From IMG/VR virus record IMGVR_UViG_3300031277_000013, positions 1 to 35,025 of that record: 35,025 nucleotides of DNA, one strand, 5' to 3'. This DNA is from a virus. Positions 3,981 through 29,158 of the stretch are shown here, piece by piece. Below the pieces are notes generated by a model that worked only from the letters and a program-made list of their open reading frames with translations, ran no database searches and was not told where the DNA came from. Within the stretch, counting starts at the first letter, position 1. The number at the start of each line of letters is the position of its first letter. The translations under genes were made by a program, and so were the position numbers.

Positions 3981-4002
3981 GTCGGATCCGACCTGACCTG
4001 CC
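3981..4002. promoter_or_regulatory. Palindrome plus reverse-oriented CGCAGGTCAG-like box before the capsid gene
   Basis: A perfect 12-bp palindrome GTCGGATCCGAC (3981-3992) is directly followed by CTGACCTGCC (3993-4002). The latter is the reverse complement of GGCAGGTCAG, a near copy of the box repeated in the origin region. It lies 34 bases before the capsid start in the only intergenic gap of this stretch. A role as operator or stoperator is inference. Confidence 0.45.
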
Positions 4003-18128: not shown

Positions 18129-19706
18129 TCAGAACAGGACGTCGAAAACCGCGCTAGCTTTCACGCGGTTGATTGCGTCTGTCAGTGTACCGGACGTCAT
18201 CGTACTAGCGCTAGTGATACCCATTCGATGCGCGAACGCAATTTGTCTATCCGATGGCGTTTTCCGGCGCCACGGACGACCAGTCTCCGCAAGGAACCTC
18301 GAATCCGTGCTAAGGATCTTATCTTCGATCCGCAGGATTGCAGTCTCTAGGTTGACTGATTCGCAGAAACGTTCCGGCAATTCACCGTTCGGTCCCCAAA
18401 TAGACTGTTGGGAGAACGTTGCACCGGCCGAAAAAGTTCCGTCACCATTTGGGAAGATGAATAGGAAATTATTCTTGGTAGCAACGAAATTTATGCCTTT
18501 ATTCGTTTTCTGCCAAGCGATCGCACGTCCGGACATGATGTCTACACCGGTCATCCCGGCCTGTCCGAGGTCAACTGGGTCAACGCCGTCACCGGTACCG
18601 GTACCGGGCTCACCGCGCATGATCTCGATACCCTCAGCCGTCTTGCGCGGTTCGGGGATCACGGCGGCAAGATTCAGGGTCTTCCCCTGAGAGGCACCCG
18701 CCATGTCCAGCACGAGGGCACTGGTTTTCCCCGGGTACGGGCGGAGCACGCGCCCGACCATCTGAACGTACAGGGATTCACTTTTTGTCGGTCTGGCGAT
18801 TACGGCTACCTCGGCACGAGGTGAGTCGAATCCTTCCGTGAGGACCATGCACGAGCACAAGATGGTAATCTTACCGTCGGCGAAATCTTTATAGATTTTC
18901 CTGCGCTCAATCTTGGGGGTTGACCCCGTAATAGTTGCCGCCGTAATACCGGCATTGTTAAAGCCATCTGTGAACGCTTCAGTCATTTCAACTGAAGGCG
19001 CGAACAGAATTGTCGATTTCCTGTTCGCCTCATCTTGCCAGACGCGAACCGTTGTCTCAACAGCATGCGATTCACGCATAGCTTTAGAGATCGCACGATC
19101 CGTGTAGTCCGCACGATTAGTTTCCGGAATTTCAAGGTCCGCAACGTTAATCATGCGCCCGATCGGGCGCACCAAATGACCTTCACTAATCATCCAACTA
19201 ATATTTTTAGAATAGACGATTTCGTCCCACACACCATTGAGGTCACGCTTATCGGCACGGCTCATGGTGGCCGTGAAACCGACACGGTTGCAGTCCCAAT
19301 GGGAAAGTACCTCGAAATACTTATCCGAGGCATAGTGGTGGCACTCATCTGTGATGATAGCGTCGATCCGTCCGAGACGGATCCGGCGCAGTGGATGCAC
19401 TAGGGTCTGAGCGGACGCCACGATACAGGGCATCGTAGCGTCGTCGCGGTTGGCCTTGACAACTCCGAGGTGATGCATGGGGATGCCGCTATCGGCGAGT
19501 TTCCGAACCGTCTGATCAATGAGCTCGTCACGGTGTGCGATGACTAGCACTCGCTTGTGCTCACGGTGAAGCCGCTCGGTTAGGGCAGAGAAAATGACCG
19601 TCTTGCCGCTCCCCGTGGGGAGAACTACGGCCGGGGCGGTAACACCACGGTCCCACGCGGACGTGATAGCGTCGATCGCCTCGGTTTGGTAGTCCCTGAG
19701 TTCCAT
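18129..19706 (-). CDS. SF2 DEAD/DEAH-type helicase
   Basis: A 525-residue helicase. Motif I VVLPTGSGKT (29-36), motif II TDECHH (DECH, 120-123), motif III FTATMS (144-149), and motif VI QMVGRVLR (315-322) are all intact, with an EGFDSPRAEV motif V. The second RecA domain ends near residue 335. The remainder, about 190 residues, is a family-specific C-terminal region. It is similar to phage and plasmid helicases that act with RecB-like nucleases. It starts a leftward operon with the nuclease and two unknown proteins. The promoter has -10 TAGGAT, 6 bases to the ATG, suggesting a leaderless transcript. Confidence 0.93.
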   Translation of the reverse strand: MELRDYQTEAIDAITSAWDRGVTAPAVVLPTGSGKTVIFSALTERLHREHKRVLVIAHRDELIDQTVRKLADSGIPMHHLGVVKANRDDATMPCIVASAQTLVHPLRRIRLGRIDAIITDECHHYASDKYFEVLSHWDCNRVGFTATMSRADKRDLNGVWDEIVYSKNISWMISEGHLVRPIGRMINVADLEIPETNRADYTDRAISKAMRESHAVETTVRVWQDEANRKSTILFAPSVEMTEAFTDGFNNAGITAATITGSTPKIERRKIYKDFADGKITILCSCMVLTEGFDSPRAEVAVIARPTKSESLYVQMVGRVLRPYPGKTSALVLDMAGASQGKTLNLAAVIPEPRKTAEGIEIMRGEPGTGTGDGVDPVDLGQAGMTGVDIMSGRAIAWQKTNKGINFVATKNNFLFIFPNGDGTFSAGATFSQQSIWGPNGELPERFCESVNLETAILRIEDKILSTDSRFLAETGRPWRRKTPSDRQIAFAHRMGITSASTMTSGTLTDAINRVKASAVFDVLF

Positions 19707-21465: not shown

Positions 21466-21481
21466 CTGACCTGCCTACACT
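21466..21481 (+). promoter_or_regulatory. -10 box TACACT with overlapping GGCAGGTCAG site
   Basis: TACACT (21476-21481) lies 6 bases before ATG 21488. CTGACCTGCC (21466-21475), the reverse complement of GGCAGGTCAG, fills the spacer directly before it, where a bound protein would block RNA polymerase. The -35 (near 21452) is weak. Confidence 0.5.
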
Positions 21482-23822: not shown

Positions 23823-24335
23823 TCAGACCTTACCACGGTTTCGAAGGTTCATTAACATCACTTTTTCGGCAGGATATCTAGCTTGTATCGTCCTACCGAC
23901 CTTGACATACTTGCATGCTCGGATGCCCCACCTGGACAGGGTTTTTCGGGCCGATCCGGGAGTAGATAGGCCAAGATATTCGGCAACCTGTTGTGCCGTC
24001 AACTCTTCACTAAGGATATCGGCGACATCATGTTGTATGATGATGGCGTCCACGTCCACACTGTCGATGGCTTCACGAATCTTATCGTGAATGTTTTCGG
24101 TATAATACCGGTCATCGGCCGGGCCGATCAGCTCGGATCCTGCCAGGACAATATCGTCCGGCAGGGCGGCGGACAGGGCATCGGTGTAGTCCGACACCAT
24201 GTCGTCATACGCTCCGGACAGAACACACAATTCGGAGAATTGTGTGTCTCCGGAGAGATACGACGTGATCACGTCGGACGGGGCGGAAACCCCGGCGTAG
24301 CGGTAGAAAACACCGTACACGGTGGTGCGGGTCAT
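23823..24335 (-). CDS. Helix-turn-helix protein beside the origin region
   Basis: A 170-residue protein. The N-terminal 110 residues are acidic and helical with no recognised motif. The C-terminal part (about 115-165) is a winged HTH-like domain: LTAQQVAEYLGLSTPGSARK followed by a wing (KYVKVGRTIQARYPAEKV), as in MerR/excisionase-type HTH domains. It is transcribed away from the repeat region that begins just upstream of its start, so it is the natural candidate to bind those repeats as replication initiator or autoregulator. ATG 24335 has GGGAG upstream; an earlier in-frame start is less likely. Confidence 0.7.
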   Translation of the reverse strand: MTRTTVYGVFYRYAGVSAPSDVITSYLSGDTQFSELCVLSGAYDDMVSDYTDALSAALPDDIVLAGSELIGPADDRYYTENIHDKIREAIDSVDVDAIIIQHDVADILSEELTAQQVAEYLGLSTPGSARKTLSRWGIRACKYVKVGRTIQARYPAEKVMLMNLRNRGKV

Positions 24336-24421
24336 GCTGACGCTCCCAGCTCGGTGGGCCGTTCTGTTGACACCCACCACTATGCCTCACCTGAGACAGT
24401 GTGTCCAGTCCAGGGGGAAGA

Positions 24422-24467
24422 GCCGGCTACCGGGCCGGCTACCGGGCCGGCTACCGGGCCGGCTACG
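24422..24467. repeat. 12-bp tandem repeat (GCCGGCTACCGG)
   Basis: Three perfect units (24422-24433, 24434-24445, 24446-24457) and a fourth that diverges into GTGGAACC. The GGCTACGTGG ending recurs once more at 24479, showing how this tract grades into the larger repeat family. Confidence 0.85.
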
Positions 24468-24482
24468 TGGAACCTCGCCGGC

Positions 24483-24705
24483 TACGTGGAACCTCGCAGG
24501 TCAGGGGCACAATTCACTCTACGCTTACAGACAACTACGTGTTTGCGCGTAAGCGTACGGTAATCAGCTTCCCGGATCCTACGTGGAACCTCGCAGGTCA
24601 GGGGCACAATTCACTCTACGCTTACAGACAACTACGTGTTTGCGCGTAAGCGTACGGTAATCAGCTTTCCGGATCCTACGTGGAACCTCGCAGGTCAGGG
24701 GCACT
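24483..24705. repeat. 97-bp tandem direct repeat, 2.3 copies, with internal dyad
   Basis: Units start at 24483 and 24580, with a partial third at 24677-24705. The two full units differ at one position near the end. Each starts TACGTGGAACC, carries CGCAGGTCAG, then a dyad TACGCTTAC...GTAAGCGTA (24520-24528 and 24549-24557 in unit one), and ends with TAATCAGC. No gene crosses it. Confidence 0.9.
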
Positions 24706-24775
24706 TTCGTAGTGGAACCGCCCCCGCCCGGCCGATCGATGCCCCAGCTCACCGCCCACAGAACGAAAAAACTCA

Positions 24776-24932
24776 CTATCAGTGTGTGGAACCGACCGGA
24801 ACGTAATCAGCGCAGGTCACGGCAAAACGGGTCACCGCGGGAACATCTCACTGTGAGTAACGGCCATGGTGGGCAGGGCGCGTTGCCGCAGGTCACCGAG
24901 GTCATCATGATGTCGGTTCCACACACTGATAG
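24776..24932. repeat. 21-bp inverted repeat flanking 115 bp
   Basis: The sequence at 24776-24796 (starting CTATCAGTGTGTGG) is exactly inverted at 24912-24932. Each arm is followed within a few bases by the same direct word TAATCAGCGCAGGTCA (from 24804 and 24933). Confidence 0.85.
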
Positions 24933-24996
24933 TAATCAGCGCAGGTCAGAGGAAAAAGTTCCATGTGACCATCGTCAACTGCTAGAAGTGGAACCC

Positions 24997-25296
24997 GATG
25001 TGGAACCGTGCTCTGACCTGCGGTTATACCCCCAAAATCAAGATCAAGTTCCATGTTTCTAGATAGATGTTCACTCATTACGCGTATAGGGGGAAAATTT
25101 GTTGGCAGTAGCGTGATGGTTACGCTACTTTCTGTTATTACCACAGGTCAGGACTGTTGACTACGTACAGTAGGGTAACCGTTACGCTACTGCTAAAAAA
25201 TGTTTTTCCTATAGGGGAAGTAAGTGAGAACCGAGTTCATGGAACTTGATCTTGGTTTTGGGGGTATAACCGCAGGTCAGAGCACGGTTCCACATC
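24997..25296. repeat. 59-bp inverted repeat around a 182-bp AT-rich core
   Basis: 24997-25055 and 25238-25296 are inverted copies with a single mismatch (58 of 59). Each arm carries one CGCAGGTCAG box and a GTTCCAC/GTGGAAC word. Just inside the arms, GTTCACTCATTAC and GTAAGTGAGAAC are also roughly inverted, so the dyad once extended further. The core contains TATAGGGG words and poly-A/T tracts. Confidence 0.9.
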
Positions 25297-25570
25297 CCCA
25301 ATCGGGATCATCCCTATCTGGAACCTCGCAGGTCAGGGCGTTGCAGATGTGGAACCCATGTGGAACCCATGTGGAACCTCGCAGGTCAGGGGCATATCCG
25401 CAGGTCAGAGACGCGACAGGATCGGGGCCGGTCCCCCCATGGCCGTCCGCCGCCCGCCCGGTAGTGCTACAGTGAGGATCACGAGCTAGACGGGGCTGAT
25501 CACCCCGGACGACGCTCACCGCGCCGGGGCAGGTTCGGACTGATCCCCGCACACCCCGGACAGCGGCTAC

Positions 25571-25625
25571 GTCCCCCCCCGTTTTTCCTGTCGGATGCCG
25601 GGGGGGACTCATTTTCTCCGACAGG
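25571..25625 (+). promoter_or_regulatory. Interleaved inverted repeats in the primase leader (possible pseudoknot)
   Basis: GTCCCCCCC (25571-25579) pairs with GGGGGGGAC (25600-25608), and CCTGTCGGA (25587-25595) pairs with TCCGACAGG (25617-25625). The arms interleave (A-B-A'-B'), allowing either two alternative hairpins or a pseudoknot. It ends about 8 bases before the AGGAG ribosome site of the primase, so it may control its translation. Confidence 0.55.
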
Positions 25626-25646
25626 ATGAGACAGGAGCCGGACCTT

Positions 25647-28274
25647 ATGACGACCCGCCCGATAGCCGTAGACGTCGCTCTGTACCTCGCAGACCTCGGC
25701 TACCGGGTCTTCCCCGTCACAATCCAATACCGTGATGACGGGCGGAAAAACACGCATTTTCACGTTTCGTGGGAGCGTGCCGCCCTCGTGCCGACCACCC
25801 CCGGGATGATCCGCACCTGGTGGCGGCAACACCCCGGAGCGTGGCCTGCCATCGCCTGTGGGCCGTCCGGGATCGTCGTCCTGGACTGTGACCGCCACGG
25901 CGGCCCCGATGGTGTGGCGGAGTACCTCACGGCGGCGGGCGGCGAGATCCCGGCCTACACGCTCCCCACCACCACCCGGGGCGAGCACCACTTTTTCACG
26001 GCCGACCCTGACCGGCCCATCCGTCCGGCTCAGGGAGACACGTCGGTCCTCCCTGGAGTGGACGTCCGGGGAGTCGGCGGATGCATCTTCCTCCACCCGT
26101 GCGCGTGGCCCGCCGCGCTCACGCTCCCGGCCCCGGATGACCTAGACCCGGCCCCGTACTGGGTGCATGAGTGGCACAGTGAGCGTGAGCGTGCCCGTGA
26201 GCGAGTCCAGGCCCCCGTGACCGCCGCTCCCGATCGTGAGCGGGTCTTCACCCGGGATCAGGCCGCCGCGTACCTCGCGCGCCACGCCCGCGCACCCCTG
26301 GCTGAATGCGGACAGGGCACGATTAACGCGACCCTCAACGCGGCCGCCGTGGTTGCGGGGCATTTCGTGCCCGGCTACTGGTCGGCGTCCGACGCTACCG
26401 AGTGTCTGATTGCTGCGCAGCGGGACGCCTGGTTGCGCCACGGTGGTGCGGATGATGGTGACTACTCCGCCGCGCACGCGACCATCGCCAGCGGCCTACG
26501 CCACGGCGCGGCTGAGCCGTACACGATCCGTGAGGCACCCGCCGTGACCACGGTGCCCGTCCCGACCGGTATCCGGTCCGCCCTGGACACCGGACAGGAC
26601 GATCCGGAGAGCACCAGCACCGACCTGACAGATTCGCTCACGGCTATTGGTGAGGCCCTGTCCGCCGACGGTGTTACCGGGGCCGTCCGGGCCGTGAGGG
26701 AGGCCGTGACCACTCACTGGGCAGGCGCGGATCTCGCAGAGCGTGCCGGGTTCACGGACACCGTGGTTACGGTCCTGCGGATCCTCGGACGCCGTGAACT
26801 ATCTCGGCTGATCAAACAGGTCGAGGCGGACATTCGGTCGGCTGAGGCGGACGCTGAGCGTACCCGTGCTGAGGCTGAGGGCAGGTGCTTTCCGTCGCCT
26901 CGTGAGCCCTTGAGGGTCGCACGTGAGCTGGTTTCTGCGCTCCCTGTTGCGGATGGTGTTCCGTCTCTTATCCGGTGGCGTGGCGATTGGTACACGTACC
27001 GGCCTGACCTCGGACGGTGGGGCATCACGAGTGCCGAGGATTTCCGGTCCTCCCTCTACCGACGTCTTGAGTATTCGGTCTATGAAACAGAGGACAGAAA
27101 GTCGGGTGAGCGTAAGATGCTCCCGTGGAATCCGACGCGAAAAACGGTCGCCGACCTGTCCGAGGCCCTGGCGTCGTGTGTTTCACGATCGTCCGCAATC
27201 GAGGCGGACCGCATAATCGCATGCCGTAATGGAGTCGTCGATCTAGGCACGCGGGAACTCCTCCCACACACGCCACGGAATTTCAACACGTCGTCCCTGC
27301 CGTACGGGTATGACCCGGGGGCGGACTGCCCGCGTTGGATCGAATTCTTGAATCAGACATTCGGCGGGCAGGGAGAAACGTTCCTGGCCGAATCTCTGCG
27401 AGAGACGCAACAATGGTTCGGGTACGTCATATCCGGGCGTACTGATCAGCAAAAAATTATGCTCATGCTGGGGCCACCCCGGACCGGTAAGGGCACTCTC
27501 CTGCGAGTGCTCACCGCACTTATCGGGCGTGAGAACGTCACGTCACCGACCCTGTCCGGTTTGCTGGGGACATTCGGTGAACAGTCCCTCATTGGCCGGA
27601 CACTGGGGATATTCTCTGACGTCAAATGGTCATTGAGAGACGTCGGTGTCGGGATCGAAAAACTTAAGGCGATTTCGGGTGAGGATACTCGGACAGTCGC
27701 CCGGAAGAATCGTGAGGCATGGGAAGGAACCTTGCCGACCCGTTTCATGATGGTCAGCAATGATGAACCGTCGTTCATCGATGATTCGGGCGCGATGGTC
27801 TCCCGGTTTCTTGTGCTTCGGTTCAATCGTCAGGTCCTCGGACGGGAAGACCCTGGACTCACCGACGCACTACTGTCGGAACTTCCGGGGATTCTGAATT
27901 GGGCCTTAGACGGTCTGGCGGATCTTGAGTCGGAAGGTCGATTTTACGATCCGGCCTACATGGCGAGTGAGCGTCAGGACCTAAGAGCCAGTACATCGAT
28001 CATCGGCGAATTCTTGGATGAGCGAGTGAGCGCGGGTCCGGCGCCGGACGTCCGGATCCGGGTTGATCAGGTGTACGAAGCGTATCGGGCGTGGTCCGAG
28101 GCGGCGGGTGTCCGGCAGCCGCTCACGCGCCGCCGGTTCCTGGCCGATGTCCGAACGGCCCGCCCGGACGTCCGTAAGATCCGGGCGAAAGTCGATGGTG
28201 AGCTGTGCTACGTGTTGTGTGGTCTGGCGGAGTTGTATCCGGGTGCTCTGACAGTACGGCGGTTCGGTGTGTGA
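25647..28274 (+). CDS. Primase-helicase (Prim-Pol plus D5/SF3 helicase)
   Basis: An 875-residue bifunctional replication protein. The N-terminal Prim-Pol domain (about 5-190) shows IVVLDCDRHG with D80 and D82, RGEHHFF, and GVDVRGVGG. A linker and middle region (about 200-480) precede a D5-type superfamily 3 helicase: Walker A GPPRTGKGT (609-617), a Walker B-like FSDVKWS, and the sensor segment RFMMVSNDEPSF. It would make primers and unwind phage DNA at the nearby origin. ATG 25647 with AGGAG upstream is preferred to ATG 25626, which lies right after a stem. The C-terminal helical part resembles a DNA-binding wHTH. Confidence 0.93.
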   Translation: MTTRPIAVDVALYLADLGYRVFPVTIQYRDDGRKNTHFHVSWERAALVPTTPGMIRTWWRQHPGAWPAIACGPSGIVVLDCDRHGGPDGVAEYLTAAGGEIPAYTLPTTTRGEHHFFTADPDRPIRPAQGDTSVLPGVDVRGVGGCIFLHPCAWPAALTLPAPDDLDPAPYWVHEWHSERERARERVQAPVTAAPDRERVFTRDQAAAYLARHARAPLAECGQGTINATLNAAAVVAGHFVPGYWSASDATECLIAAQRDAWLRHGGADDGDYSAAHATIASGLRHGAAEPYTIREAPAVTTVPVPTGIRSALDTGQDDPESTSTDLTDSLTAIGEALSADGVTGAVRAVREAVTTHWAGADLAERAGFTDTVVTVLRILGRRELSRLIKQVEADIRSAEADAERTRAEAEGRCFPSPREPLRVARELVSALPVADGVPSLIRWRGDWYTYRPDLGRWGITSAEDFRSSLYRRLEYSVYETEDRKSGERKMLPWNPTRKTVADLSEALASCVSRSSAIEADRIIACRNGVVDLGTRELLPHTPRNFNTSSLPYGYDPGADCPRWIEFLNQTFGGQGETFLAESLRETQQWFGYVISGRTDQQKIMLMLGPPRTGKGTLLRVLTALIGRENVTSPTLSGLLGTFGEQSLIGRTLGIFSDVKWSLRDVGVGIEKLKAISGEDTRTVARKNREAWEGTLPTRFMMVSNDEPSFIDDSGAMVSRFLVLRFNRQVLGREDPGLTDALLSELPGILNWALDGLADLESEGRFYDPAYMASERQDLRASTSIIGEFLDERVSAGPAPDVRIRVDQVYEAYRAWSEAAGVRQPLTRRRFLADVRTARPDVRKIRAKVDGELCYVLCGLAELYPGALTVRRFGV

Positions 28275-28275
28275 G

Positions 28276-28305
28276 TTGATAGTGAACACCTGTAGGGGGT
28301 AGTGT
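28276..28305 (+). promoter_or_regulatory. Leaderless promoter TTGATA-18-TAGTGT
   Basis: -35 TTGATA (28276-28281), 18 bp, -10 TAGTGT (28300-28305), 7 bases to ATG 28313. AGTGAACACC follows the -35 and AGTGTTCGCA covers the -10. It starts right after the primase stop. Confidence 0.8.
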
Positions 28306-28312
28306 TCGCACC

Positions 28313-28588
28313 ATGAACAACAAAACGACGGAAGCGCAGAAACTCGCCCCGATTTGTCAAAAACTGGGGAGCAACCTTATTGGTGGTGACATCATCGTTC
28401 ATCCAAACGGTGGGGTATTGTTCGAAGTTTTCGGGAAAATCGAATGGTTAACTCGTCCCGGCGTGTGTTCGTACTACAGTTGTCGATTGCTCGGGTCTTG
28501 GGAACAGGGTCCGATGATGGAAAAAACCACTTTTATGAATCTGAATGACACCGACGTGTGTCAGGTGTACCGGCGGACGTGCGATTGA
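28313..28588 (+). CDS. Small protein, first of a duplicated cassette
   Basis: A 91-residue protein closely related to the next gene's product. Both start MNN, share TTEAQKLAP, GSNLI/GSDLI-GGDIIV, WLTRPG-CSYY, and end TDVCQVYRR. No known family is recognised; the Cys residues and aromatic turns suggest a small compact fold. It probably has a leaderless mRNA. A terminator and a CGCAGGTCA box follow, and the whole promoter-gene-terminator unit recurs downstream. Confidence 0.75.
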   Translation: MNNKTTEAQKLAPICQKLGSNLIGGDIIVHPNGGVLFEVFGKIEWLTRPGVCSYYSCRLLGSWEQGPMMEKTTFMNLNDTDVCQVYRRTCD

Positions 28589-28611
28589 CCCGATTGACCA
28601 TTGAACGGATG

Positions 28612-28642
28612 CCCCCTCGACTTTCGGGTCGGGGGGGTTTTT
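28612..28642 (+). terminator. Intrinsic terminator of the first cassette
   Basis: Stem CCCCCTCGAC / GTCGGGGGG followed by TTTTT (28612-28642). An identical sequence recurs at 29048-29078. A CGCAGGTCAA box starts at 28651, just past it. Confidence 0.9.
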
Positions 28643-28690
28643 CGTGTTTCCGCAGGTCAAGGCGTTGCTCCTGGTGTGACACGCCGTAGG

Positions 28691-28720
28691 TAGACAGTGT
28701 GCACAGGATGCTGGTAGTGT
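28691..28720 (+). promoter_or_regulatory. Leaderless promoter TAGACA-18-TAGTGT with twin TGTGCACA boxes
   Basis: -35 TAGACA (28691-28696), 18 bp, -10 TAGTGT (28715-28720), 7 bases to ATG 28728. The word AGTGTGCACA occurs at 28696-28705 and 28716-28725, exactly 20 bp apart. Confidence 0.8.
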
Positions 28721-28727
28721 GCACACC

Positions 28728-29036
28728 ATGAACAACACAGAGGAAACGACAGAAGCGCAGAAGCTCGCTCCCTACGCAAGGGACATCGTTTCGACTTGCC
28801 GCAAGAGAGGGAGCGATCTTATCGACGGTGACATCATCGTCCTGCCTAGCGGCGGGGCATTGTTCGAAATTTCCTGCCAGATTGGATGGCTAACCCGTCC
28901 CGGTGAATGTTCGTACTACGATGGTTGGTCACTTGACAAGTCCGGGTCTCGGGAACGGGATTCTAATCTGGCTCGGGACATTGTCTACCTGCGCGACACT
29001 GACGTGTGTCAGGTGTACCGGCGAGTGCGCGACTGA
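28728..29036 (+). CDS. Small protein, second copy of the duplicated cassette
   Basis: A 102-residue paralogue of the preceding gene's product, 11 residues longer, with insertions near residues 15 and 75 (RDIVSTCRK and SNLARDIVYLR). Conserved core words are TTEAQKLAP, GDIIV, WLTRPGECSYY and DTDVCQVYRR. It is probably leaderless. The function is unknown. The differences between the copies are mostly at the protein level, while promoter and terminator are nearly unchanged, suggesting that the duplication is kept for expression or diversification. Confidence 0.75.
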   Translation: MNNTEETTEAQKLAPYARDIVSTCRKRGSDLIDGDIIVLPSGGALFEISCQIGWLTRPGECSYYDGWSLDKSGSRERDSNLARDIVYLRDTDVCQVYRRVRD

Positions 29037-29047
29037 CAGAACGGATG

Positions 29048-29078
29048 CCCCCTCGACTTTCGGGTCGGGGGGGTTTTT
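29048..29078 (+). terminator. Intrinsic terminator of the second cassette
   Basis: The same stem and T-run as at 28612-28642. CCGCAGGTCAGGGCG follows at 29086-29100. Confidence 0.9.
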
Positions 29079-29128
29079 CGTGTTTCCGCAGGTCAGGGCG
29101 TTGTTCCTGGTGTGACACGCCGTAGGTG

Positions 29129-29158
29129 TAGACAGTGTGCACAGGATGCTGGTAGTGT
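29129..29158 (+). promoter_or_regulatory. Third copy of the cassette promoter, TAGACA-18-TAGTGT
   Basis: -35 TAGACA (29129-29134), 18 bp, -10 TAGTGT (29153-29158). The sequence from the preceding terminator to this promoter nearly repeats that before 28728. Where the earlier copies have ATG 7 bases on, this one has ACA, so the transcript here has a leader of about 65 bases and the gene uses a Shine-Dalgarno site. Confidence 0.8.

Follow-up and report, generated by a model that had tools for sequence, protein, structure and literature searches.

The box CGCAGGTCAG, repeated in the presumed replication origin of a phage, was also found in the presumed origins of other mobile elements and in host oriC. 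Chromosomes, phages, plasmids and integrative elements all keep this box together with its flank and a short distance to the initiator site, whereas the initiator site itself is exchanged, so that a box joined to a swappable initiator site has the look of a general module of actinobacterial origins. The explanation that fits best, and that we consider reasonably probable from the sequence comparisons, is that the phage origin combines an element-specific iteron with a conserved actinobacterial box that would recruit a host replication-initiation factor. With slightly less confidence, we suggest that actinobacterial origins share the element CGTTTYCGCAGGTCAG, which would be read by a host initiation factor beside interchangeable initiators and which mobile elements would carry so as to capture the host replisome.

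The box cluster and the presumed phage origin

The window analyzed is the whole 35,025-bp stretch of DNA of one IMG/VR record and contains phage structural genes. The host of the phage is likely an actinobacterium, because the terminase is distantly similar to the terminases of Arthrobacter, Mycobacterium, Microbacterium and Gordonia phages. No close relatives of the phage were found by DNA, primase, capsid or HTH-protein searches.

The presumed origin is an intergenic region (24380–25620) that contains boxes, iterons, inverted repeats and an AT-rich core. Twelve boxes lie in 24495–25408, nine of them exact copies of CGCAGGTCAG (eight on the + strand and one on the − strand) and three with one mismatch, starting at 24811, 24887 and 25142. 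On the + strand, the boxes at 24495–24504 (CGCAGGTCAG), 24592–24601, 24689–24698, 25327–25336 and 25380–25389 form composites with TGGAACC (TGGAACCTCGCAGGTCAGGG), those at 24811–24820 and 24887–24896 read CGCAGGTCAC, the variant CACAGGTCAG (25142–25151) sits in the middle of the AT-rich core, and further boxes occupy 24940–24949 and 25399–25408. The two remaining boxes lie in the left (25013–25022, − strand) and right (25271–25280, + strand) arms of a 59-bp inverted repeat. The number and extent of the cluster boxes, as well as the four outlying boxes at 28651, 29087, 3993 and 21466, had been given correctly by the sequence-only reading, which had also proposed computing the expected frequency of the motif. 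The whole window holds 18 matches with at most one mismatch vs. 2.0 in shuffles, and 15 copies of the 8-mer core GCAGGTCA vs. 1.08 expected; 11 of these cores fall within the 1.24 kb of the cluster, where 0.05 were expected. The cluster boxes are not all independent, with two in a 97-bp tandem repeat and two in the arms of the inverted repeat. Most retain the core and the G that follows it, and their upstream flank is mostly not the canonical one. In the five composites, the distance from box to TGGAACC is 2 nt, not 7–14 nt. The exact composite word matched five viral contigs, each with one to three copies of GCAGGTCA, which is about the chance level for 17 bases, and these contigs are not relatives.

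TGGAACC, rather than the box, is more likely the element-specific iteron. The sequence-only reading had overlooked this repeat, as well as the AT-rich core and its inverted repeats. Fourteen copies were located in the cluster (24468–25378), compared with two in the rest of the phage; twelve are on the + strand, starting at 24468, 24487, 24584, 24681, 24713, 24787, 24989, 25001, 25319, 25350, 25361 and 25372, and two on the − strand, at 24915 and 25286. The left part of the cluster carries two tandem 97-bp units (24482–24675, + strand) that are 99% identical and have one composite each, together with a partial third copy; the composite box at 24592–24601 belongs to this repeat. Further right, the arms of the 59-bp inverted repeat (24997–25055, + strand, and 25238–25296, − strand; 98% complementary), each with one box and TGGAACC, enclose the AT-rich core (25056–25237), a presumed unwinding region of 182 bp with a GC content of 41.8% (56.0% in the genome) and an imperfect inner inverted repeat. 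Judging from this anatomy, the cluster at 24.4–25.6 kb is very probably the replication origin of the phage. The proposal that the clustered boxes are iterons thus stands in part, with the origin anatomy and the recurrence of the box in related origins and in oriC in its favor, and TGGAACC the more probable element-specific iteron. Three copies of a 12-bp tandem repeat, GCCGGCTACCGG, adjoin the cluster at 24422–24466.

A DnaA-dependent origin of the BUS type, which is composed of DnaA boxes, a GC-rich spacer and DnaA-trios (PMC6669920, PMC8287927), was rejected for the window cluster, where neither the DnaA box TTRTCCACM nor the DnaA-trio sequence TACTACTAC was found. The iteron TGTGGAACC resembles a DnaA box with its flank (TGTGGATAACC) minus two bases, which could be chance.

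Next to the cluster, the replication gene (25626–28274, + strand) encodes a protein of 882 aa with a Prim-Pol domain (aa 18–179), D5_N (462–580), a DUF5906 helicase (615–721) and a C-terminal winged-helix region. The helicase profile matches the structure of a staphylococcal primase-helicase (PDB 7ola, E 5e-28), with matches to RFX winged helices in the C-terminal region. A DEAD/ResIII-type helicase gene at 18129–19706 (− strand) provides the phage with a second helicase besides the D5 protein.

The box in related elements and in host oriC

Distant kin of the helicase were obtained from an element of Streptomyces corallincola (L014) and from plasmids of S. virginiae and Pseudonocardia (L015, L016), with further kin in genomes of the same class and in 80 viral contigs. 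A group of 47 deduplicated actinobacterial phage, plasmid and integrative loci (group A, from L014–L017 and L027–L072) was searched with the box as fixed beforehand from the window, L014–L016 having already been seen to carry it. Box density reaches 0.94/kb over the 500 bp that follow the helicase gene and is about 0.1/kb elsewhere, and 17 loci have a box within 800 bp vs. 2.2 expected (p = 2e-10), with about two thirds of the group lacking an exact box near the helicase gene. In these distant relatives, the motif is kept. The window differs in having its presumed origin 5′ of the helicase gene; in the related elements, the box is downstream. Inverted box pairs (+ then −) 140–185 bp apart, with variants of the form [CG]C[AT]G[CG]TCA accepted, were counted in 14 of the 47 loci vs. 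6 of 501 control windows, typically at a spacing of about 155 bp; the Fisher p of 4e-12 is descriptive, because inspection of the group A regions preceded the choice of variants and distance range. Pairs of opposite sense occur in L014, L016, L034 and the window.

The presumed origins of the related elements comprise iteron arrays, an AT-rich middle and boxes, and contain no DnaA boxes in the phages. Their iterons differ from element to element (TGCAGGGT, GTAGTCACC, GCTCCTAG, TGTTCAGGG, GGACAGGTA and others), and the first iteron mostly follows the box after 7–12 nt, with the linker gaaaac or ggaaacg. The box accompanies Prim-Pol as well as Toprim-like primase modules (L059 and L064, Toprim being assigned by eye). 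Among 23 more distant loci, mostly with Toprim primase modules (group B), none has the box. Downstream of the Toprim-module D5 helicases of this group (L073–L112), different words are conserved (TTGCATAAT among them), and group B is perhaps a different origin family, though its loci are closely related to one another. Two regions of the S. corallincola element, L014:800–1000 and L014:4917–5110, each combine boxes with iterons, and these iterons differ (CAGGGAGG, GGTCCGCG). Just 3′ of an integrase-like gene, two boxes form the hairpin arms GCCTCTGACCTGC...GCAGGTCAGAGGC (L030:11365–11396), and a similar palindrome is present at L014:6852–6874.

In the chromosomes of the class to which S. corallincola belongs, about 459 copies of TTYCGCAGGTCAG were detected in 247 genomes vs. 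about 43 for the reversed control. Three of 30 chromosomal contexts proved to be the dnaA–dnaN intergenic region (oriC), and dnaA regions were therefore collected; 110 were gathered, dnaN was found in 104, and the dnaA end was trimmed before 8-mers were ranked. In these 104 regions, GCAGGTCA has 39 copies opposite to the dnaA strand and three on it. The same box, read as TGACCTGC, ranks second in enrichment among all 8-mers (39 loci vs. 1.0 expected, p = 2e-47); only the DnaA-trio TACTACTA ranks higher, and the DnaA boxes rank lower. The p-values over genomes overstate the case since the species are related, and the strand bias and fixed spacing are the robust signs. Where a DnaA-box core (TCCMC) is nearby, the box stands 14 nt from it in 44 of 61 cases and 13 nt in 11. 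The box is followed in turn by a linker (ggaaacg or similar), two DnaA boxes, CCCC, DnaA-trios and an AT-rich stretch, and stands at a fixed spacing to the DnaA boxes and at a variable distance from dnaN. In several oriCs that lack the exact word, a close variant (TCACCTGC or TGATCTGC, for example) occupies its place. The flank, YGTTTYC-GCAGGTCA-G, which was unused in selecting the matches, is identical in oriC and in element origins.

An extension to the whole phylum was unproductive, as the combination of box and DnaA core was not clearly enriched vs. the reversed control, and the oriC-like matches recognised among those listed came only from the Actinomycetes G001 and G019. Neither iterons nor DnaA boxes are found near most of the lone chromosomal boxes, and the idea that these are disguised origins of mobile elements was set aside as a general answer, with iterons at only 4 of 30 by a crude count. 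Some of these boxes are directly beside tRNA genes (L116, L123 and L143; three of the 30 contexts), another (L127) is about 35 nt after an RNase P RNA gene, and the box at L028:14816 comes after a terminator beside a tRNA-Arg-like gene. Rfam recognised no known RNA at the boxes themselves. Because many lone boxes lie away from oriC, the factor that reads the box might possibly have a role besides initiation.

Proposed function and comparison with known origins

On the sequence comparisons, a host factor fits best as the binder of the box, and it is the simplest choice because the box is kept while the initiator, the initiator site and the primase module change. In this mechanism, CGCAGGTCAG would be the phage copy of an actinobacterial origin element whose place in host oriC is 14 nt beyond the unit of DnaA boxes and DnaA-trios. 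It would be bound by a host initiation factor other than DnaA, which may serve to load or position the replicative helicase or primase and might work beside any initiator that opens the origin, whether DnaA or a D5/SF3 helicase; the phage would thus exploit the box of its host to recruit the host replisome. For TGGAACC, the examples of P4 alpha and SaPI Rep suggest that the probable binder is the winged helix at the C-terminus of the adjoining Prim-Pol/D5 helicase. We know of no host protein that has been put forward as a binder of the box. DciA, which acts as helicase operator in most phyla, Actinobacteria among them (PMC5109545), might be considered as one candidate.

If the proposal is true, the DnaA sites of actinobacterial oriC are joined by a second conserved component, and the box sequence (CGTTTCCGCAGGTCAG) could serve as DNA-affinity bait for its binder. 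The steps that follow origin opening, poorly known in actinobacteria, a group that includes antibiotic producers and mycobacteria, would become directly testable, and the box would offer a simple signature for locating origins in the phages, plasmids and integrative elements of actinobacteria.

Origins of the P4 and SaPI type consist of iterons and an AT-rich core beside a D5/SF3 helicase-primase gene. The window cluster has this composition, with an adjoining Prim-Pol/D5_N/DUF5906 gene and 14 TGGAACC copies around the core of 41.8% GC, and resembles these origins in helicase family, lineage-specific iterons, AT-rich core and adjacency of gene and origin. To our knowledge, the P4 and SaPI models contain no additional word that is constant between elements and common to host oriC. 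In P4, the repeats are bound by a winged helix (PMC4234260). The origin of pRN1 resembles those of box-carrying elements in being directly downstream of a Prim-Pol/SF3/winged-helix gene, but differs in being a 100-nt stem-loop without iterons (PMC4234260).

With respect to the BUS, the actinobacterial oriC box and the core of the first DnaA box are 14 nt apart; the box is nevertheless a separate word, and the window cluster and phage origins carry it without DnaA boxes. The main text of the BUS survey names no such box element (PMC8287927). The actinobacterial oriC-binding proteins listed in a review, AdpA (TGGCSNGWWY), MtrA (GTCACAGCG) and IciA (AT-rich sequence) (PMC4285127), act at the oriC of Streptomyces or Mycobacterium, and their recognition words differ from TGACCTGC. 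No description of the box element was found in the open-access papers searched, and literature searches by box sequence returned essentially primers.

Alternative readings of the box

One alternative, which takes P4 alpha and SaPI Rep as its model and is in our view unlikely, is that the phage's own Prim-Pol/D5 initiator binds both repeats, the box through a conserved domain and TGGAACC through another. The adjacency of the box to D5/SF3 helicase genes is consistent with it, as are the matches of the helicase profile and the C-terminal region given above; however, the box is equally conserved in chromosomal oriC, where DnaA initiates, and it is missing from group B in spite of the related D5 helicases there.

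The box might also mark where a primase begins on the template, the primase being the phage Prim-Pol or host DnaG, a reading that we regard as improbable. The precedent is the NrS-1 polymerase, a Prim-Pol and helicase protein that needs an 8-nt template word, recognising 5′-TTTGGTTA-3′ once on each genome strand (PMC8718748, PMC7102993). The box shares with that site the length of 8 nt, the one copy per strand, the kind of protein and the ending GGTYA, and its T-rich 5′ flank and the inverted pairs that often flank an AT-rich core would suit a priming site. Unlike the NrS-1 site, the box also occurs with Toprim-like modules (L059, L064) and in chromosomes at oriC, on which the Prim-Pol version fails, and a Prim-Pol template site was dropped as the sole answer. 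Priming by host DnaG at the box is possible and overlaps with recruitment of a host factor, the explanation preferred here.

It is quite unlikely that the box is a transcription signal, that is, part of a terminator or a regulator site for replication or stable RNA genes. Two window boxes do come after terminators: at 28612–28660 (+ strand), a terminator hairpin and T-run are followed by a box with one mismatch (28651–28660) and the canonical flank (GTGTTTCC-GCAGGTCA), and at 29048–29096 (+ strand), a second copy of the terminator, duplicated with the preceding gene, is followed by an exact box (29087–29096), also with the canonical flank. The left box of many phage origins similarly comes after the helicase-gene terminator, and some chromosomal boxes adjoin tRNA or RNase P RNA genes as described. 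Against this reading, the spacing in oriC is fixed to the DnaA boxes and not to dnaN, and the box pairs of phage origins are on opposite strands.

The boxes at 28651 and 29087 form one duplicated gene-terminator-box block of 365 bp with 78.6% identity; at 28313–29158, two paralogous small genes have been duplicated together with terminator and box. The other two outlying boxes, lone copies of GGCAGGTCAG on the − strand at 3993–4002 and 21466–21475, have no conserved flank and are probably chance occurrences. All four are intergenic, and their excess over expectation (4 cores vs. 1.30, P = 0.04) is borderline and weak evidence, because only about three are independent. Stoperators of cluster A mycobacteriophages are repeated asymmetric words, partly intergenic, and the window box resembles them as a repeated asymmetric word partly between genes; unlike them, it is clustered at the origin, has few scattered copies and is common to host chromosomes. 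The sequence-only reading had proposed that the scattered boxes are such stoperators and that the HTH protein encoded at 23823–24335 is a candidate common binder. On this reading, the protein would silence genes and control the origin from every box; although its gene adjoins the cluster and its product resembles a helix-turn-helix at the C-terminus, the proposal is scarcely credible given the small excess and the single duplication behind two of the four boxes, the HTH protein has only a weak PHROG match and no relative in viral contigs, and it is an unlikely standing binder because the box also occurs in replicons and chromosomes without it, including host oriCs beyond the reach of a phage protein.
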